Made by a program: the position numbers and the translations under genes. From contig JAUIAH010000004.1 of assembly GCA_030425385.1 (NCBI GenBank), positions 62,001-126,000 on the forward strand: a DNA stretch of 64,000 nucleotides, read 5' to 3'. Positions within the stretch are counted from its first letter, which is position 1; every line of letters begins with the position of its first letter. Below are positions 20,220 to 60,147 of the stretch, one piece after another. The stretch is from Verrucomicrobiia bacterium (lineage in GTDB: Bacteria > Verrucomicrobiota > Verrucomicrobiia > Verrucomicrobiales > DEV007). Below the pieces are notes generated by a model, which was given only the letters and a program-made list of their open reading frames with translations, searched no databases and was not told the origin of the DNA.

Positions 20220-21383
20220 TCAATCTTTGGCTGTAATCGCAGCAGCTTCAGCGCTGTAATTCTGCGGAGCCTTGGATGCCGAACTCTTCCCTCCCGCCGA
20301 ACTCTTCCCTCCCGCCGAACTCCCACTACTACCTGCTCCTCCTCCGCTTGTTGCCCCCTCATCTGCACTCACGCCGCCACCGCCAGTGACCATCGAGAAT
20401 GCCCCCATGCCCGCACCGGTCGCCATGCCGGAACTGGGGCCACCGATGGCTCCGCTGGTGAAGCCTCCGGCTCCGCCCACGGCCGCTCCGGCAACGGCTC
20501 CAGCCGGGCCGCCAACGCTGCCGCCGAGCATGGCTCCTCCGACCGCGCCGCTTCCGGCTCCGACGGCGCTTCCGGCGAAGCCGCCTAACAGGGCGCTGCC
20601 GATCTGGGCGCCGCTGGTGAGGATGCGGCTCATGATGATGGGCGCGCCGATGGTGCTGGCAACGAGCCAGATCGAGGCGATGAGCATGAAGATGAGCATC
20701 TGAGGGGCATAGGAGGCCTGGCCTAACACACCGCCGAATTCATACAGAGTTCGATCGGCGGCGTTGTCCATGAGGGATTGGGTCATGAGGTTGGCCACGG
20801 CCCAGCCGAGTGGCCACATGATGAGCGAGAAGAGGCCCATGACGTAACGCACGGCAATGCCACGCGTGGCGTTGAGCATGAGCATGGGGAGGAAGATAGG
20901 CGCGAGGGCGACGCCGAAGTAGACGAGGGCTTTGTGAATGAAATAGGCCAGCCAAACGATCACCCAGGCGATCTTGGCCGCGATGAGGATGAGGCCTTTG
21001 GCGAACAGTTCGGCGATGGCGGTTTGGGCATCGAAGATCCGGTCGAGCCACGATTGGTCATCGCCTTCATCGACCGGGTTGGTGAGCAGCTCGCCGAAGC
21101 GCGTGTGCGTTTCGCGCGGATCGGTGTCGAGGCCTTCGAGGACGAACTCGGTCACGAGGTTGCCCGCATCGAAGACCCAGTCGTCGATGTAACCGAGGGT
21201 GATGCTGATGACGGCGACCGCCACCAAAGCTCTGACGATTTCGCTGAAACTGCCGAACATTCCCCGGTAGGCGGCGAGCAGCAGCCCGATCACCAAGGTG
21301 ATGTAGGCGAAGACGAGAAGGCCTTCGTGCAGTTCGGCCACGTTTGCTTTGAACGTGGGGAAGAGGATGTCGAAATCGTCCAT
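20220..21383 (-). CDS. virB6: VirB6/TrbL-like channel protein
   Basis: A 387-residue polytopic protein with about six or seven hydrophobic segments in residues 20-250 (LLVFAYITLVIGLLLAA, ALVYFGVALAPIFLPMLML, PQMLIFMLIASIWLVAST), typical of VirB6/TrbL inner-membrane channel subunits. The C-terminal third is a Gly/Ala/Ser-rich tail with glycine-zipper repeats (GGAMLGGSVGGPAGAVAGAA) and ends with a duplicated AGGKSS. It is the last gene of transfer operon B, 18 nt after the SSB stop. Confidence 0.83.
   Translation of the reverse strand: MDDFDILFPTFKANVAELHEGLLVFAYITLVIGLLLAAYRGMFGSFSEIVRALVAVAVISITLGYIDDWVFDAGNLVTEFVLEGLDTDPRETHTRFGELLTNPVDEGDDQSWLDRIFDAQTAIAELFAKGLILIAAKIAWVIVWLAYFIHKALVYFGVALAPIFLPMLMLNATRGIAVRYVMGLFSLIMWPLGWAVANLMTQSLMDNAADRTLYEFGGVLGQASYAPQMLIFMLIASIWLVASTIGAPIIMSRILTSGAQIGSALLGGFAGSAVGAGSGAVGGAMLGGSVGGPAGAVAGAAVGGAGGFTSGAIGGPSSGMATGAGMGAFSMVTGGGGVSADEGATSGGGAGSSGSSAGGKSSAGGKSSASKAPQNYSAEAAAITAKD
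20281..20316. repeat. Tandem 18-bp repeat in the virB6 3' end
   Basis: Two identical 18-bp units encode two AGGKSS hexapeptides in the Ser/Gly-rich tail of VirB6. Copy number could vary by replication slippage. Confidence 0.8.
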
Positions 21384-21401
21384 GGGGCGGTCGCCGTTTG
21401 G

Positions 21402-21758
21402 TTAGGCAGCTTGGTCAGCCGCTTCCGTGTGTGCTTTGGGGAGGAGGAATTGCCAGTGATTGACGCGGATGTAGTGGTGAAAGAGGCGCTCGCCGTCCTT
21501 TTCCCACTCCGCGAGTTGCAACGAACCTTCGATGTAGACAGGTTTCTTGCTGGTGACGTGTTCGGCGAAGGCTTCGCCTGATTTGCCCCAGATCTGGATC
21601 TCGACGGCTGTGAGCCGTTCGAAGGTTTCGCCGTTGGACCGCTGCACGGTTTCGTTGTGAATCAGCCGAGCCCGCGTGACGCTGGTGTCGCCAGCGGTGG
21701 CCGTCTTGGGTGGCTTGGTGATGTTGCCGGTGAGTTCGATGCGATTGCGTTGGAACAT
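21402..21758 (-). CDS. Single-stranded DNA-binding protein, operon B copy
   Basis: A 118-residue OB-fold protein of the SSB family: MFQRNRIELTGNITKPP, VTRARLIHNETV, RLTAVEIQIWGKSGEAFAEHV and VYIEGSLQLAEW. It lacks the acidic DDDIPF-type C-terminal tail of chromosomal SSB. A paralogue at 46509-46862 shares the same core. In transfer, such proteins coat the incoming strand. Encoded between virB5 and virB6. Confidence 0.85.
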   Translation of the reverse strand: MFQRNRIELTGNITKPPKTATAGDTSVTRARLIHNETVQRSNGETFERLTAVEIQIWGKSGEAFAEHVTSKKPVYIEGSLQLAEWEKDGERLFHHYIRVNHWQFLLPKAHTEAADQAA

Positions 21759-45314: not shown

Positions 45315-45440
45315 TTGGAGGGATGAGCCGAGATGAGGCAGAGCTGACAGAGGCATTCGGATTGGGCTACGAGGGGAGATGCACCACACATTGTTTCTCC
45401 GACCTTTCCGGACTTGGCTTTCCATGGTCAGTAGTTCACT
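45315..45440 (-). pseudogene. Remnant of the 5' end of the Ser/Thr kinase gene
   Basis: Aligns with 34768-34876. TTTCTCCGACC and GGCTTTCCATGGTCAGTAG are nearly unchanged, and ATG-GAA-AGC-CAA recreates the MESQ start. In another frame it still gives CLCQLCLISAHPSN, matching [14 protein letters not shown] of the zinc ribbon. Frameshifts and small deletions have destroyed it, and of the shared 31-nt element only the right half survives. With the intact kinase start it brackets the 35-45 kb carbohydrate block. Confidence 0.85.
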
Positions 45441-46330
45441 CTTTTGCGATGAGTGGAGGTGAAGCGGTTTGGAGGGAGAGGTCTCTCCCTTCGCGCCTAC
45501 TGCGTGCGGCGCGACCCTCTCTGCGGGACACCCGCAACGCCCGATCCGCTTCGCGGCAATTCTTTATGCGCTGACGCGTTTTGTTTGGATGCATGGATGA
45601 CTTTCCACTCCGCCCCCACCGCAGAACCGTCGTGGATGCGTGCGCTGCTTCGTTCCAGCGGCGCGGGGGCTGGGTTTCCGCTTCCAGCTTCGCTTCTCTC
45701 GCATCCACGACCGTTCTTCCTCCGCGACACGCCACCCGCCGTTGATCGGCAGCACCCGGTTTCACCCGGTGCCGGAGATTTGGAAGCTCCGCGCCGCACG
45801 GGACGCCAGGGCCCACCACGATCCAGACCCAGCCCTCGCGTCCCGCGTGCCATGGTTTGGGCTTCGCCTTTGGAGTGAGGGGTCTTGCACCGTGATGCAA
45901 CCAGCCGGGAGACGACCACCGCGTTCCCACCCCTCGTCTCCCGGCTGGTTCCACACCGTGCGCTTTCTGAAGTCAGCCTCCCGTTGGTCGGTAGGTGATT
46001 TTGGAGAAGCTCCGCACCCCGCACGGACGGTTGGGCGTCCACGGGAAAATGGGTATCCCAGAGGGAGCCCTCCTTCCCTACGGCATTTTCCCTTAGGACG
46101 CCTGCACCGATCCGCGCCTCTCGCTTCGCGTCCTTTTTCTCTCGAAAAAATGTTTTTTCTATCCGCCCTTCTTTCTTTCCTCATGGCTGACGCCGCTTCC
46201 TTTATCCTTCTTAGTTGCTTGTTAGTCGCAACCGCATCTCTCGGCTCGTTGGCCGAGGGTGGTTCGGATCAGGTGGCTTGTTTTGGCGAAACAAACGGCT
46301 CTCGGGATGCTTGTTAGGTTCTGGAATGCG
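45441..46330. other. Structured non-coding region (possible structured RNA or origin)
   Basis: About 890 bp with overlapping open frames on both strands but no convincing gene. It contains a dense set of perfect inverted repeats: GGGAGAG/CTCTCCC (45474-45489), CGCGCC/GGCGCG (45492-45513), TGCGGG-ACA-CCCGCA (45522-45536), GTCGTGGATGCG/CGCATCCACGAC (45629-45640 with 45700-45711), a nested stem GGGACGC-c-AGGGC / GCCCT-c-GCGTCCC (45800-45844), a 17-bp stem (45899-45950) and GGGAAAATG/CATTTTCCC (46043-46092). The orderly series of local and nested stems suggests a folded RNA or a replication/transfer origin. It directly precedes the SSB-DUF932 operon. Confidence 0.65.
45899..45950. repeat. 17-bp perfect inverted repeat (hairpin)
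   Basis: AACCAGCCGGGAGACGA (45899-45915) and its exact complement (45934-45950) around an 18-nt loop. The strongest single hairpin in the structured region. No U-tract follows, so it is not a simple rho-independent terminator. Confidence 0.85.
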
Positions 46331-46340
46331 TGCGCGTAAT

Positions 46341-46357
46341 GCATTGTTTATCAATGC
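46341..46357. promoter_or_regulatory. Inverted repeat upstream of the SSB operon
   Basis: GCATTG-TTTAT-CAATGC in an AT-rich segment about 45 nt before the -35 box. Possible operator. Confidence 0.35.
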
Positions 46358-46391
46358 TTTATAGATGTATTTTTCTTCAATGTATCACTCG

Positions 46392-46426
46392 ATTTTCATT
46401 GAAAATGTTCATTAGAACACTATACT
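46392..46426 (+). promoter_or_regulatory. Promoter of the SSB-DUF932 operon with overlapping palindrome
   Basis: TTGAAA (46399-46404), 16 nt, TATACT (46421-46426): a good sigma-70-like promoter. The -35 box lies in the palindrome ATTTTCA-T-TGAAAAT (46392-46406), and GTTC-ATTA-GAAC (46407-46418) fills the spacer, so a repressor probably acts here. A hairpin GAGAGC/GCTCTC (46441-46461) lies in the leader. This operon lacks the 31-nt element. Confidence 0.6.
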
Positions 46427-46508
46427 ATTCTTACCACTTTGAGAGCGCATGAGGTGCTCTCACTTACAAACACAAAAAACCACATACCTACCTGAAAGGA
46501 ACCTACCC

Positions 46509-46862
46509 ATGTTCACGAAGAACCACATCCAATTGACCGGTAATATCGCGAAAGCTGCAGTGACTCGCCAAGCTGGTGAAACCACGGTGACGCGCGCTCG
46601 CTTGATCCACAATGAGACGGTGCGCAATGCCGATGGCGACACGACGGAACGGCTGGTGGCCGTTGACCTCGATATCTGGGGAGCACGGGGCGAGGCGTTC
46701 GCCAAGCACGTCACGACCAAGGTGCCTGTTTGCATCGAAGGACGCTTGCAGCTCGACCAGTGGGAACACGAAGGCCAGAAGCATTCGCGCCTGCTGGTGC
46801 GGGTGGATGACTGGCAGTTCCTTGCCGCGAAGCCTAGCGAGAAGGAGGAGAAAGCGGCCTAA
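46509..46862 (+). CDS. Single-stranded DNA-binding protein, second copy
   Basis: A 117-residue OB-fold protein: MFTKNHIQLTGNIAKAAVTR, TVTRARLIHNETV, LVAVDLDIWGARGEAFAKHV and VCIEGRLQLDQWEHEG. Clear paralogue of the SSB at 21402-21758. The ATG at 46509 has a strong ribosome binding site (GAAAGGA). It is controlled by a housekeeping-like promoter, in contrast to the transfer-operon copy, so the two may serve different stages. Confidence 0.87.
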   Translation: MFTKNHIQLTGNIAKAAVTRQAGETTVTRARLIHNETVRNADGDTTERLVAVDLDIWGARGEAFAKHVTTKVPVCIEGRLQLDQWEHEGQKHSRLLVRVDDWQFLAAKPSEKEEKAA

Positions 46863-46966
46863 CGAACGACCGCTAATTACAAACCACATGGCAAGCGCGG
46901 GGAGGGGCTGCAACCCCTTCCCGCCAGAGCCTCAAAACCTAACTACGTCAGAAAACGGAAGCGATA

Positions 46967-47731
46967 ATGAAACTCAATAATCTTTACTTACACTGTGGCG
47001 GGTCGCTTGTCGAGCCCGAGGAACTGGAACGCGTGAAGACGCCGGAAGCGGTGGGACGTTGGCAGCCGGTAGGCCATGCCTCCTTGGCCGCGCAGGTGCG
47101 CCGGGGATTGCAAGACGCCGGCATGGAGATCCTGAACGAAGCCCATGCCTTGAACCGTGCCGGGGCCCAGTACTTTGGATTGATGCAAGTGGCCGTGGAT
47201 GGTCAAGAAGGTGACCAATGGGGAACGATCGTTGGCTTGCGCAATTCGCACGACAAGCGCTTTCCCGCAGCGTTGGCCATGGGTTCCAGCGTGTTCGTTT
47301 GCGACAACACGTCTTTTTCCGGAGAGGTGGTGTTGGCGCGACGCCACACGACGAATATCTTGCGCGACCTTCCGGAGGTGACCACGCGAGCCATTGGTAA
47401 GTTGTCAGACTTTGTTGGCATGACTGAACGTCGAGCGAGTCTCTACCAGGAACGGGAAATGGGCAATGCGGAAGCGCATGACCTCATCGTGAGGGCACTG
47501 GATGCGCGGGCGATCACGACCACGATGGTGCCGAAGGTGCTGGAGCAATGGCGGGTGCCGAAGCATCCGGAGTTCAATGACCGCAATTTGTGGTCGCTTT
47601 ACAACGCCTTCACCGAGACGTTGAAGGGTGGCTTGATGCAGTTGCCTCGACGCAGCGAGGCCTTGCATGGCGTGTTGGATGGCGCGGCACAAGCGGCAGG
47701 TGCGGACTCGTCGCTGGCGTTGCCCGCCTAA
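46967..47731 (+). CDS. DUF932-like phage/plasmid protein
   Basis: A 254-residue protein. RWQPVGHASLAAQVRRGLQDAGMEI, GLRNSHDKRFPAALAMGSSVFVCDNTSFSGEVVLARRHT and the late helical region correspond to the DUF932 type found on plasmids, phages and ICEs. Function unknown; several members are co-encoded with SSB or repair proteins. 104 nt after the SSB gene, likely same transcript. Confidence 0.75.
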   Translation: MKLNNLYLHCGGSLVEPEELERVKTPEAVGRWQPVGHASLAAQVRRGLQDAGMEILNEAHALNRAGAQYFGLMQVAVDGQEGDQWGTIVGLRNSHDKRFPAALAMGSSVFVCDNTSFSGEVVLARRHTTNILRDLPEVTTRAIGKLSDFVGMTERRASLYQEREMGNAEAHDLIVRALDARAITTTMVPKVLEQWRVPKHPEFNDRNLWSLYNAFTETLKGGLMQLPRRSEALHGVLDGAAQAAGADSSLALPA

Positions 47732-47756
47732 CGTCTACACAAGAAAGGATCAGACC

Positions 47757-47936
47757 ATGACGGTTTCACAACCTCAGGAGACAGCGACGATTACTTGGCG
47801 CGGAGAAGTCTACCCGCGACCTTCGGACGAATCGCTTGAGTTCTGGAGTCTCGATAGCGTTTGCGAAACGCCGGATGGCGATATTGTCGAACCGGATCAT
47901 TCCGATAGTTGGCTGAGCCTGCTAGGGTTGATCTAA
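47757..47936 (+). CDS. Small acidic protein of unknown function
   Basis: A 59-residue acidic protein (TITWRGEVYPRPSDESLEFWSLDSVCETPDGDIVEPDH). Strong ribosome binding site (AAGAAAGGA) 8 nt before the ATG and 25 nt after the DUF932-like gene. Acidic small proteins beside DUF932 genes on mobile elements could be anti-restriction or DNA-mimic proteins; that is only a guess. Confidence 0.55.
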   Translation: MTVSQPQETATITWRGEVYPRPSDESLEFWSLDSVCETPDGDIVEPDHSDSWLSLLGLI

Positions 47937-48004
47937 CGCTCTAACTGCAATGCTCTTTCATTGTAATTAGTGATCATTTGCATCGGGCTGTCCAAGGTGG
48001 TTGA

Positions 48005-48313
48005 ATGGTCGTTTCACCCGATCATTCAACCGCCATGGACGCCCTCTTCACCACGTATCAACGCGCTGCTATCGTTTGGGCTGTGGGTGGCGTTCTCTTT
48101 GTCGTCGGTTGGTTTGGCTATCACTGGATCCAGCGGCGACGCTTCTACCGACGCAAGCTTGCCGATCCCTTCCCGAGTTACACGCGTTACTGGCTGGTGA
48201 CACGCAGTGAGAGCTTGTTGGTGCTTTGCTTTGTCGGGGCGATCTTCATGGGACTGCTCTGCTTTTTGACGGGAGCAGTCGACATCATCGACGGGCCTAA
48301 CATTCAATTATAA
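48005..48313 (+). CDS. Small membrane protein
   Basis: A 102-residue protein with two hydrophobic segments (AAIVWAVGGVLFVVGWFGY; LLVLCFVGAIFMGLLCFL) separated by a basic loop. The ATG at 48005 has AAGGTGG upstream and is preferred to the internal ATG at 48035. No family recognised. Last gene of the SSB operon. Confidence 0.55.
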   Translation: MVVSPDHSTAMDALFTTYQRAAIVWAVGGVLFVVGWFGYHWIQRRRFYRRKLADPFPSYTRYWLVTRSESLLVLCFVGAIFMGLLCFLTGAVDIIDGPNIQL

Positions 48314-48332
48314 TTTCCAGAATTGGAAAATT

Positions 48333-48376
48333 TCCGGCGCGGCCACGCTGCGTAGTACTTGCATGGCCGCGCCGGA
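48333..48376. repeat. REP-like palindrome, copy 1
   Basis: 13-bp perfect arms TCCGGCGCGGCCA / TGGCCGCGCCGGA around an 18-nt loop. Its 32-nt core (48339-48370) is the same length as, and clearly similar to, the palindrome at 52479-52510. Together they flank the PQQ-dehydrogenase/pectate-lyase block. Confidence 0.75.
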
Positions 48377-48476
48377 GGTCGGGCTTCATCGCCCGTGAGT
48401 TTGTGGCTTCGCCAAAAGAGGTTCGGTCACTCGTCTGATTCGCCCTGTGCTTTGCGAGTTTGGCAGGCAGAGGTGA

Positions 48477-56717: not shown

Positions 56718-59700
56718 TTAGCGTTTGTGACCGGTGCTGCGGTGTGCGCGTCGGGCTCGGTTGATGGCCTGCCAGACGTGGTAGGCTTTGCGCTGGCGTT
56801 GATGTTGTTCGGAATGCTGAGCGGATCGGTGGCGCTTGCCGAACCAGCGCCGGACGGCCTGGGGCATACGGGCGACTCCGAGCTTTTGCCAAAGCTTACG
56901 TAGGCCGGCTGTTTGCGCGGCTCGGCGTTCGCAGGCGGCGAGGTCTTTGCGCAACTCACGGAGGCGGTGTTCACGCTGTTTGCCTTCGACGATCTGGGCT
57001 CCGTTGGGTGCCTGGATTTCCTTGGCGGCATGGCGCTCGTTGAGCAGGGCCGCTAACTCTTTGCCGAGGTCGGCCACGAATTCGCGAGCGAGCATCCGTT
57101 CGCTGCGGTTGGCGACGGCCTTCTTCAAGGCGTCGAGATCGTGTGCGAAGAGCCGGTGATCTTGTTTGAAGCGGGTATTGCTGACATAGAACTGGCGCAG
57201 GTTTGCCGCCCCGAGGGAATGCGGGCCGACGACCAGAAGCGAGGCTTGGACGCTGGCCCCTTGAGATTTGTGTGAGGTGACGGCGTGACCGTGGCTCACT
57301 TGCGTGAAGTGTGTGGGCAGCACTTTACCTCCCGCGAGTGACACCTTGCCGGTGGTGGGATCGACCGCCTCGACTTTGAGTCGGTCGCCATTGCTGACCT
57401 TGATGTCTTTGCAGTTGGCACGGAAGAGGAGTTCGTCTCCGGCAGCGAGTTTGAGGGGTCGTGATTCCGCGACATCAAAGGCTTTGCGTTGTCGTCTACC
57501 GATGAGGACTTCGCTGCCGTCAGGACGTTCGACGACGACACCGTTGTCCTTTACGGCTTTGACCGTGGCAGCCTCGCCTGCCTTCATCCCGGAAACAGCG
57601 CGATGGAAGTTGAGCACGTGGCCAGGTTGGTAATCTTGCCAGTGACAGCGTTCGACTTCCGTCCAGCTCAGCGAAGCGGATCCGCGGATCTCGATTTCCT
57701 CACCGCGGATGAGCCCGCGCGCTTTGAGTTCGCGGCGGGCTTCTTCGTTGAAACGGTCGATGTCTTCCCATGTGGGGATGACGATGAGGGTTTCGTTGCC
57801 CTGCGCTAGTTGGTCAGCGTAGTGGGTGACGGCTTTCTCAAAGAGCGCGCGTGCTTCGGGGATCTCGTGCACCATGCCGAGGGATTCGGCGTGCTCCAAC
57901 GCTTTCAATGGTTGACCATCGGCGAGCAGTTTGGCGATCTTACGATGCTCGGCGCGTTGCTGGCGACGCACATTGGTGAGGCGTTGGGCTGGGATGAGCT
58001 TGGAATCGATGATGCTGCGCAAGGCGTTGCCGCGCTCGACCGATTCGTGCTGCTTGATGTCGCCGACGAGGACGAGTCTCGCGCTTTGCGCGCGAGCGAT
58101 GTCCACGAGTTGCGCCATTTGCTTGGTCGAAAGTGCCCCGGCTTCGTCAATGAGGATGGCTTGCCCGGCGGCGTCCCTTTGCAGGTGATCGCTGCAAAGG
58201 ATCGCCGCGACGGTCTTGGCATCGTTGTAGCCGATTTCGGAGAGTTCGGTGGCTCCTTGGGTATTGGTGGCGAGGGCGATCACGCCGCGTTTGTGGCGAT
58301 GACGGTAGGCTTCGTCGAAGCGCTTCAAGGTGTGGGTCTTGCCCGTGCCAGCGTCGCCTATCAGAATGGCGATGCCGTTTCGACTGTTGGTCAGTCCCGT
58401 GAGGGCGGCTTGTTGGCCTGCATCGAGCAGCTCCATCTGCGCGCCTTCGGTGTCGCCAAGCGGATGGTATTGGCCACGCTTGGTTTGGGCGAAGTCGATG
58501 ATGCTTTGTTCTTCGCGATACACGTCTTCGGTCGAGATGCGGTAGCCATCGCTGATTGCACCGGAGATCGATTGCATTTCGCCATAGAGCCCGCGGGGAT
58601 CGAGGTCGCCTGGTTGTTTCGATCCGAAACGGATGGCGGAGGCTAACGCATCGCCTAAGCGCGGCACGCTGGTGCGTTCGAGGCAGTGGTCGAGACCGCT
58701 TTGGGCGGCTTGTTTGAGATCGCCCTTCGGTGCAGGGGTAATGTCGCGAGCTGCGCGTTGCCGGGCTTCGTGCACGGTGCGTTCGATTTCGGCGAGATCG
58801 TTAGGATCGAGTCGCTGACGTTGCTGCTGCCGGACTTCCGCTGTCGAGATCTCGGTGAGTTTGGGATTGCGGGCGTCCTGGGAAAACTCGGCGACAAGCT
58901 GTGCATCCGGTTCCTTGCCAAACGCTTTCTTGTATTCAGTGGCAAAGCGCAAGGCGGCAACGCCTTGGAGATCGGCAATAAACTGACCCGTGCGCCGTTT
59001 ACTTGGCGCGTGACCGAAGACTCGCTGGTACCGCTGTTCAAACGCGAGGCGCTGGCTGGCACGAGCGCTGAAGAGTTGCTTGGCGTGTTCGCTGATTCCG
59101 GTGATGTCGAAACCGGGCCCACTGTTCGATCGAATCACTTGGTAGCCGAGCTGCCCCAATCGGCGGGCGAAATCTTGATAGAGGAACTCGCGCACGTAGA
59201 CGCTGGCCTCCATCATGGCGCGACGTTGGAGAGCCATCCATTGACCGCGCTCGGTGTCGTAGCTGGCGTTGGCCATGACGGCATGAGCATGCAATTGCGG
59301 GTCGAGTTCGCGGCTGCTGTCGTGGAAGAAGAGGGCGCCAATGACATTGCCAGTGACACGGAGCTTCTCGGAGTCGCGGTACTGGCCAGTGCGCAAACGC
59401 ACAGCAGCGAAGCGCTCCATCTCCTGAACGGCGAGTCTCACCGATTGCTTCCAGGCATCGACGATGCGGTCGTCGCCTCCCACCAGCGCCGCAATACTTG
59501 CGGCCTTGGGTGCGCCGATGGTGATGTCGTGCAGGGCGATCGGTTTGCGTTCTTCGTGGCGACCGGTCTTGGGGTGAACGACGCGGGTCGCTTCGAGTTT
59601 GCGCGCGGTGAGTTGCTCGCCGGTGACAGGATGCTGATTGTTGCGCAGCCGGTCGAAGTGCTCCGCTTCGACGGGGCCTTCTAAACCAAGTTCATGAGCG

Positions 59701-59813
59701 CCTTTGCCAATCCACTCGCCAGGCACTTCTTTGCCTTCCTCATAGTAGTCGTTCGCACGCAGGTGCTTTGATAGGTAGGAGTCACCTCCCGAGATGGAAC
59801 ACGCGGTAATCAC
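56718..59813 (-). CDS. traI: MobF relaxase-helicase (TraI/TrwC type)
   Basis: A 1031-residue bifunctional protein. N-terminal relaxase: tandem Tyr in DYYEEGKEVPGEWIGKG, and the metal-binding HAHAV in DPQLHAHAVMAN near residue 172. C-terminal SF1 helicase: IGDAGTGKTH (near residue 485), LIDEAGALS, and HGHAVTSHKSQGAS. It nicks the origin of transfer and unwinds the strand. The GTG at 59813, 4 nt after the shared element, fixes the start (MITACSISGGDSYL). A basic C terminus of about 100 residues may bind DNA. Confidence 0.92.
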   Translation of the reverse strand: MITACSISGGDSYLSKHLRANDYYEEGKEVPGEWIGKGAHELGLEGPVEAEHFDRLRNNQHPVTGEQLTARKLEATRVVHPKTGRHEERKPIALHDITIGAPKAASIAALVGGDDRIVDAWKQSVRLAVQEMERFAAVRLRTGQYRDSEKLRVTGNVIGALFFHDSSRELDPQLHAHAVMANASYDTERGQWMALQRRAMMEASVYVREFLYQDFARRLGQLGYQVIRSNSGPGFDITGISEHAKQLFSARASQRLAFEQRYQRVFGHAPSKRRTGQFIADLQGVAALRFATEYKKAFGKEPDAQLVAEFSQDARNPKLTEISTAEVRQQQRQRLDPNDLAEIERTVHEARQRAARDITPAPKGDLKQAAQSGLDHCLERTSVPRLGDALASAIRFGSKQPGDLDPRGLYGEMQSISGAISDGYRISTEDVYREEQSIIDFAQTKRGQYHPLGDTEGAQMELLDAGQQAALTGLTNSRNGIAILIGDAGTGKTHTLKRFDEAYRHRHKRGVIALATNTQGATELSEIGYNDAKTVAAILCSDHLQRDAAGQAILIDEAGALSTKQMAQLVDIARAQSARLVLVGDIKQHESVERGNALRSIIDSKLIPAQRLTNVRRQQRAEHRKIAKLLADGQPLKALEHAESLGMVHEIPEARALFEKAVTHYADQLAQGNETLIVIPTWEDIDRFNEEARRELKARGLIRGEEIEIRGSASLSWTEVERCHWQDYQPGHVLNFHRAVSGMKAGEAATVKAVKDNGVVVERPDGSEVLIGRRQRKAFDVAESRPLKLAAGDELLFRANCKDIKVSNGDRLKVEAVDPTTGKVSLAGGKVLPTHFTQVSHGHAVTSHKSQGASVQASLLVVGPHSLGAANLRQFYVSNTRFKQDHRLFAHDLDALKKAVANRSERMLAREFVADLGKELAALLNERHAAKEIQAPNGAQIVEGKQREHRLRELRKDLAACERRAAQTAGLRKLWQKLGVARMPQAVRRWFGKRHRSAQHSEQHQRQRKAYHVWQAINRARRAHRSTGHKR

Positions 59814-59817
59814 GCGT

Positions 59818-59848
59818 GGTAATTCGTTCTTTCCGCTGCAAGATCACA
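59818..59848 (-). promoter_or_regulatory. Shared 31-nt transfer element, copy 6 (relaxase)
   Basis: TGTGATC-N14-ACGAATTACC, 4 nt before the GTG start of traI. Confidence 0.75.
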
Positions 59849-60098
59849 AAGAAGCTACTTTGCGCTGACTAACAGTGCTACCTTCTGGCAATTTAGGAAG
59901 ATTGGTTTGGTGAGGATACACAAGACCCACACGCAGATGCGCGTGGATTGTGTCTCTGCGAGACGGCAAGCCCACAACAGGGCCGATACCGGGCTCGAAC
60001 TTGCCCGATCTCGAGCGAATGGCCCGGTTGCCGCCCGTGGACAGCCCTGTTCAGGGCGCTTGCGCGGGCCAGTTGCAGGCCGATTTCGGGCATCTGTC
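59849..60098. other. Candidate origin-of-transfer region
   Basis: The gene-free space between divergent shared elements of the relaxase gene and the ParA operon. A 36-nt hairpin at 59918-59953: outer stem ACACAA/TTGTGT, inner CCAC-A-CGC/GCG-C-GTGG, loop AGAT. A second structure: GGCCCG/CGGGCC (60021-60070) enclosing GCCCTG-TT-CAGGGC (60044-60057). Inverted repeats beside a relaxase gene are typical of oriT. No nick site can be named. Confidence 0.5.
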
Positions 60099-60129
60099 TG
60101 TGATGTTCGGCGGCGGATGACGAATTACC
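60099..60129 (+). promoter_or_regulatory. Shared 31-nt transfer element, copy 7 (ParA operon)
   Basis: TGTGATG-N14-ACGAATTACC on the plus strand, 18 nt before the ATG of the first gene. Orientation follows the gene, as for all copies. Confidence 0.78.
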
Positions 60130-60147
60130 TCGTGACCGCTGACGATC

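Follow-up and report, generated by a model that had tools for sequence, protein, structure and literature searches.

The leader that precedes an SSB-DUF932 operon in this Verrucomicrobiia genome is a real, conserved, non-coding structure, as confirmed here by following it from the window (the whole 64,000-nucleotide stretch analysed; Table 1) into related genomes. The reading we prefer, tentatively and at somewhat less than an even chance, is that it is a DNA element of the establishment operon of a MobF element, which would fold on the incoming single strand and serve early SSB expression.

Table 1. Features of the leader, the repeated unit and its surroundings (window positions)
Feature	Position	Strand	Basis or remark
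Repeated 2.95-kb unit	45463..48419	+	leader, SSB, DUF932, two small ORFs, terminal hairpin
5' palindromic repeat ("head", model R1): H1, H2, tail1, H3, tail2	45468..45550	+	R1 match 78.7 bits, family alignments
H1 hairpin GGGAGA/TCTCCC	45474..45489	+	A-T/G-C exchanges in relatives
H2 hairpin, conserved TAC-NNN-GTG loop	45493..45512	+	inverted-repeat search, family alignments
tail1 CCCTCT, mirror image of H1 3' arm	45515..45520	+	three-way covariation
H3 hairpin GCGGG/CCCGC	45523..45535	+	sequence
tail2 CGCCC, mirror image of H3 3' arm	45538..45542	+	run lengths covary
Long stem, 18-nt arms	45623-45640/45700-45717	+	94% complementary, 59 nt between arms
Nested stem, 14-nt arms	45799-45812/45832-45845 (45799..45845)	+	one mismatch
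17-20-bp hairpin, 20-nt arms	45896-45915/45934-45953 (45896..45953)	+	between two CACCGTG boxes
3' domain	46034..46102	+	most conserved stretch of SSB leaders; 76-85% pieces in relatives
A/T hairpin GAAAAAA/TTTTTTC	46144..46159	+	inverted-repeat search
Sigma70-like promoter TTGAAA-16-TATACT	46399..46426	+	read from sequence
LexA-type box TGTTC-N4-GAACA	46406-46419	+	within promoter spacer
SSB	46509..46862	+	PF00436, E 4.4e-13
DUF932 protein	46967..47731	+	PF06067, E 2.6e-9
Terminal hairpin, 16-nt arms	48333..48376	+	near unit end
TrwC-type (MobF) relaxase-helicase	56718..59813	-	PF08751, E 1.9e-61

The structured part of the leader spans about 45468-46160 and is followed by an A/T-rich spacer and then the promoter. 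All the stems listed by the first-pass annotation are present in the sequence, including the one with arms 59 nt apart, the nested stem and the long hairpin. Folded as RNA, the stretch 45468-46180 has z-scores of -6.75 (+ strand) and -6.00 (- strand), and folded as DNA, -6.73 (+) and -8.11 (-), each against 20 shuffles; for each strand and parameter set, 0/20 shuffles equalled the real fold. The lower folding energy of the - strand is also found in its shuffles (means -296 and -272) and is thus uninformative on which strand folds. The same annotation saw no credible gene here, and this holds: all eight indels that separate the first 713 nt from the two closest copies, which lie in the same genome, are of 1 nt, and for that reason we reject a protein-coding reading. 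The longest ORF of the leader (45640-46317), the only one so searched, has no Pfam match. Homologues of the leader show the compensatory changes that had been named as a check on the structure, and no protein frame is retained among the copies compared within the source genome.

Most conserved among the leaders are the 5' repeat, a head of about 85 bp for which we built a covariance model (R1), and the 3' domain, a similar piece of which is recognisable by eye in the ArdC leaders of another family. About 600 nt past the 5' repeat are also conserved, and CACCGTG boxes recur in the leaders. The middle hairpins are lineage specific: in several relatives aligned by eye, hairpins persist at matching places with different arms, as does the 17-20-bp hairpin, which keeps its position while its arm sequence differs. 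In the long stem, a central C.C mismatch (G.G on the opposite strand) is kept in several relatives, again by eye.

The leader travels as part of a larger unit, which also holds small ORFs of 59 and 102 aa. The source genome has three copies of this unit, in the window and on contigs C48 (94.3% identical to the window over 2959 columns) and C6 (93.6% over 2960). Contig C27 carries an older, fourth copy, with 69% identity in the leader. On the left, the unit begins at, or a few bases from, the point where the 5' repeat starts. Outside the unit the copies diverge at their edges, and to the left each has a sequence of its own. At 45394-45447, left of the unit in the window, there is the remnant of a gene start that looks protein-kinase-like by eye, and the C48 and C27 copies adjoin similar genes; copy C6 has a large serine recombinase to its left.

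The neighbors of the SSB-DUF932 module in relatives of the same family are p114, a small gene, and an opposite-strand relaxase of TrwC type. With the window included, 8 of the 11 copies of the module have TrwC on the same piece of sequence; two others have p114 without TrwC (L035, at a contig end, and L039) and one has neither (L034). The window relaxase lies 8 kb beyond the unit with chromosomal-type genes between them, and beyond it are two ParA-type genes and then a gene that matches Phage_integrase weakly, below the cut-off. From this gene content, we infer a MobF integrative element as the home of the module, and the adjacency to TrwC fits the expected establishment region of a conjugative element; the ICE-like setting assumed in the first-pass annotation is right. 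At 20220-21758 on the - strand, a second SSB gene sits beside a gene with a sub-cut-off TrbL match, which suggests another conjugative element; R1 has no match near this second SSB.

Mapping R1 across the order Verrucomicrobiales, we found matches in 67 of 386 genomes, with 1 to 6 in each and up to four per locus, under strict filters that count genomes with cut contigs (e.g., G001, G002, and G023) as negative. A class-wide sample gave 11 of 236 genomes, 3 of them outside the order. For all such counts, MAG contigs may be misassigned. The genes that follow the head were tallied by simple ORF calls for 65 of 68 copies from 39 loci, three weak copies being excluded. The first reference gene on the same strand within 1.4 kb is ArdC for 10 copies, DUF6876 for 10, a 106-aa protein (P106) for 8, SSB for 7, and a 577-aa protein for 2; 28 have none, four of which had less than 600 nt of downstream sequence. 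The 577-aa protein (loci L053 and L099) is RepA-like by look and has a neighbor that is ParA-like, also by look, and gives no Pfam match. The spacing from head to gene is narrow, at 227-273 nt for DUF6876, 385-429 or 575-577 nt for ArdC, and 791-1096 nt for SSB. Polarity is fixed as well: reference-gene matches within 1.5 kb on either side are on the same strand in 74 of 77 tallies, the 3 opposite ones are all SNase, and ArdC, SSB, DUF6876, P106, and the RepA-like gene are never on the opposite strand to the head in Verrucomicrobiota copies.

The head is further linked to relaxase and anti-restriction genes. By hand comparison of the lists, it occurs in 26 of 35 TrwC-positive genomes versus 41 of 351 others and in 36 of 40 ArdC-positive genomes versus 31 of 346 others, the Fisher tests on these co-occurrences ignoring relatedness. 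For example, in eight contigs (from G128, G091, G118, G034, G060, G196, G180, and G079), ArdC with a head upstream faces an opposite-strand TrwC about 5-11 kb away. Only 17 of the 56 listed ArdC places have a head just upstream; two of the 39 without it are at contig ends. A single query, a 101-base relative of the head, had no match in plasmid (72,556 records) or phage collections, and a pattern scan of viral contigs gave one match. The match at locus L116 looks like a chance match inside a gene and was set aside. At L084-L094 and L101, the distance between the 5' end of a repeat and the start of an opposite-strand gene is often only about 25-130 nt, as if the repeat marked an insertion boundary; some of these genes are defence- or toxin-antitoxin-like by look.

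This distribution bears on the first-pass suggestion of a replication or transfer origin, which was right in kind, as a DNA-level feature linked to a MobF relaxase. A hairpin-rich, non-coding region in a relaxase-bearing element could be its oriT or oriV, and at L053 and L099 two copies precede the RepA-like and then the ParA-like gene. However, one locus can contain as many as four copies of the 5' repeat (e.g., L086 and L094), and these stand before different genes, which makes a single oriT or oriV unlikely. It also usually lies several kb from the relaxase gene; the gap between the relaxase and p117 (59814-60147) is presumably the more usual place for an oriT. We therefore consider an origin very improbable, the least probable of the readings weighed here.

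Whether the conserved stems belong to DNA or RNA can be approached through wobble pairs. When a folded RNA changes from one pair to another, it passes mostly through G.U, as read on the transcribed strand. We predicted pairs on both strands, counted G.T versus A.C cells, and used RNase P (29 of 30 loci, excluding L166) and tmRNA (24 of 30, excluding L269, L278, L292, L294, L295, and L296) from the same clade as RNA controls. G.T cells on the + versus the - strand number 201 versus 57 in RNase P (29 sequences) and 102 versus 32 in tmRNA (24), and this excess was kept in 6 of 6 draws of 11 control rows. The leaders give 26 versus 26 for the ArdC type (11 sequences, including L085, which has no ArdC within 1.4 kb) and 31 versus 41 for the SSB type (13 sequences, of which L040 lacks SSB, three are near-identical, and several are partial; a subset of 9 gives 23 versus 33). 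The totals are 57:67 for the leaders and 303:89 for RNase P plus tmRNA.

Of the head hairpins, H2 was counted with its positions fixed in 61 of the 77 unique head sequences: 295 of 305 cells are Watson-Crick, with 1 G.T and 6 A.C. The anchored arms of the whole head have 1006 of 1037 cells Watson-Crick, with 5 G.T and 9 A.C, but only the H2 count is unbiased, because H1 and one H3 arm were chosen by best pairing. An automatic consensus fold of the head places 122 G.U among 822 cells on the + strand, and 20 G.U versus 5 A.C among 1047 cells on the - strand; we attribute the 122 G.U to a one-base shift of H1 and H3. An H3 count in copies from the Fibrobacter phylum (305 of 307 Watson-Crick) was discarded as evidence, since the search pattern itself demands G- and C-runs.

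Taken as sequence evolution, these counts point to folded DNA rather than RNA. The near-even balance in the leaders (26:26 and 31:41) does not establish the minus strand as the folding one. A large folded RNA, as first suggested, loses ground, since the leader wobble lacks the signature of both same-clade RNA controls and there is no Rfam match: over the window nothing reaches gathering level, and the sub-threshold matches of the region are at chance level. An RNA could still take the form of a large structured molecule or a cis-acting + strand mRNA leader that controls SSB, ArdC, and other genes by attenuation or protein binding. The constant orientation, the gene-specific spacing to start codons, and the compensatory changes would all suit such a leader, as would the invariant TAC-NNN-GTG loop, in which 20 of 21 rows have a T.G pair, and a possible terminator-like alternative pairing, AGGACGC/GCGTCCT-TTTTT, at 46095-46138. 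Set against these are, besides the wobble balance and the Rfam result, a negative GC skew in 24 of 24 leaders (C-rich on +), and we regard an RNA leader as unlikely, with perhaps one chance in a handful.

The tails of the head covary with its hairpins. Over 76 unique cases, the C-run in tail1 tracks that in the H1 3' arm (r 0.63), and over 53 cases tail2 tracks H3 (r 0.69). Partial r is 0.60 and 0.67 within modules and 0.06 and 0.33 across modules (shuffle p 5e-5, relatedness ignored), from 125 of 131 sequences that could be parsed, including Fibrobacter-phylum copies; the alignment rows are related, which means that p does not come from independent events. Early tail tests on few combinations were weak (p 0.012 to 0.027). 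The tail tends to mirror the sequence of the 3' arm, as the third strand of a paperclip triplex would, and the three-way covariation of both hairpin-tail modules suggests that both form DNA triplexes. Of two forms considered, a purine motif on the - strand and a pyrimidine motif on the + strand, we favor the first, since a purine-motif triplex would tolerate CCCATT, a tail seen often. Among cells with unpaired H1 arms, the tail agrees with the 3' arm in 6, with the 5' arm in 3, and with neither arm in 1, too small a sample to weigh. A single G-quadruplex is not favored, since run lengths track each other within modules and not across them.

The head also occurs outside this phylum. Of 150 genomes from the Fibrobacter phylum, 94 have the head or its first half, and genome G387 has the most, with 24 R1 matches (25 pattern matches versus 0 in the control). 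For 23 copies in G387, the next gene is on the same strand in 13, opposite in 7, and not seen in 3. In five genomes (L303, L304, L307, L308, and L309), the full unit of the head lies in frame inside a gene, which is of CoaBC type, with Flavoprotein and DFP domains in the two of five tested; this in-frame copy sits in the CoaBC-type linker, beside other apparent in-frame repeats. Thus, the head acts as a palindromic repeat in the Fibrobacter phylum, portable and not itself proof of a regulatory role. Moreover, the head is not a dedicated promoter by itself, because these copies are dispersed without clear orientation preference, even inside a reading frame.

These copies are what would be expected if the leaders were selfish palindromic repeats (REP- or RPE-like), piled up in the intergenic regions of mobile islands with no function for downstream genes, and the start of the duplicated unit within a few bases of the repeat is in keeping with that. 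However, the Verrucomicrobiota reference genes, with their narrow spacing and constant strand, and the conservation of some 600 nt beyond the repeat speak against mere accumulation, and none of the 30 Y1 transposase loci carries the repeat. This explanation therefore seems to us doubtful, on a par with an RNA leader. The Y1 loci had been inspected for association with the head (7 of 8 genomes have Y1 genes, and 0/30 Y1_Tnp loci examined carry it); a REP with a RAYT transposase, prompted by a GTAG foot at H2 on the - strand, was dropped on this result. The source genome itself (G000) has 36 Y1_Tnp matches over many contigs, many of them ORFs of about 348 aa, an expanded IS200/RAYT-like family.

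REP/BIME and the Rickettsia palindromic elements are known short palindromic repeats. The head resembles them in its short palindromic units, many per Fibrobacter-phylum genome and some in frame, but differs in its two covarying hairpin-tail modules, its fixed polarity to Verrucomicrobiota establishment genes, and the lack of any Y1 transposase seen with it. A bolder and rather improbable possibility, rated no higher than the selfish repeats, is that the head is a portable, itself mobile ssDNA switch, its tandem hairpin-plus-mirror-tail modules folding as intramolecular triplexes. As a single-strand promoter or a device for priming, it would stand before the early genes of conjugative elements in Verrucomicrobiota and also spread through the Fibrobacter phylum.

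Downstream of the leader, the LexA-type box within the promoter spacer is exact in 6 of 12 SSB leaders aligned by eye. Its motif, which we take to be the verrucomicrobial LexA motif, occurs 14 times in the source genome versus 6 in the reversed control. Four occurrences are SSB promoters, and of the other 10, two sit 10 and 50 bases ahead of polymerase genes of DnaE2 and ImuB type (with PHP/DNA_pol3_alpha and IMS domains); the remaining boxes are mostly inside genes or distant from them. By its placement, the box behaves like an SOS operator, and the SSB-DUF932 operon is probably SOS-controlled, because the same box precedes these two SOS-type polymerase genes.

The whole leader might instead be a regulatory region of duplex DNA, in which an element-encoded regulator would bind its sites at cruciforms or symmetric sequences, with no single-strand function. 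The even wobble balance (26:26) is expected of duplex palindromes, and the repeated CACCGTG boxes could be such sites, whereas long variable loops and arms 59 nt apart are unusual for operators and SSB already has its compact LexA-type promoter. We judge this improbable, more so than an RNA leader or selfish repeats, and all three remain live rivals to the DNA element that we prefer.

For that DNA element, we envisage that the conjugative element enters the recipient as ssDNA and that the leader stretch then folds by itself, probably as the SSB template strand, with the ~85-nt head forming tandem hairpin-plus-tail (triplex-like) folds. By recruiting RNA polymerase or primase, such a fold may allow SSB and its neighbors to be produced while the second strand is still incomplete; once the DNA is duplex, the ordinary promoter with its LexA-type box would take over. 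Relatives carry this head in front of ArdC, DUF6876, and further genes of the element as well, and it would thus be an early-expression module that these genes share.

A few plasmids of enterobacteria have known single-strand promoters, and similarity or promoter boxes have pointed to additional candidates. According to the accessible parts of two papers, Frpo is non-coding DNA that folds when single-stranded and rebuilds promoter boxes; it is found ahead of ssb and anti-restriction (anti-defence) genes, several times in a leading region, and switches on early expression in the recipient (PMC9849209, PMC11541004). As far as these excerpts describe the Frpo/ssi elements of F- and I-type plasmids, the leader is like them in place, polarity, gene company, multiplicity, ssDNA folding, and conjugative setting: SSB (7) and ArdC (10) are downstream of the head among the 65 copies tallied, none on the opposite strand, and the leader is stable as DNA in both strands (z -6.73 and -8.11). 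It differs in being about 230 to 1100 nt long, headed by a common ~85-nt repeat, and found in another phylum, and it is without a sequence match to them, as judged by one 101-base head relative against the plasmid collection. No -35/-10 boxes were seen by eye in the leader stems. By analogy, the leader probably works like Frpo/ssi and is at most a candidate member of that group.

Other systems offer partial likenesses. OLE, GOLLD, and ROOL are large bacterial RNAs that the leader resembles in size and density of structure, but the leader has neither an Rfam match nor an RNA-like wobble excess. Plasmid R388 has TrwC, and its leading region is like the present loci in combining ArdC with a TrwC-type relaxase. 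In the accessible part of its description, R388 ArdC is an establishment gene in the leading region, and no recurrent structured leader is met there (PMC7213743). A literature search by title and start of abstract, with subscription papers mostly outside its coverage, found nothing among the papers listed that describes the head repeat or the leader.

For other structured non-coding finds, wobble asymmetry, tested against RNA controls of the same clade, offers an inexpensive means of separating folded DNA from folded RNA. If the triplex reading is true, sequence evolution would here have revealed a conserved triplex fold, which would be unusual. If the leader is indeed an establishment element folding on the single strand, leading regions could be recognized by this DNA marker in bacteria that lack model systems. 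Importantly, it would then be a second solution, in another phylum and placed before SSB, ArdC, and further early genes, to the same task, and would suggest that zygotic induction from ssDNA is general.
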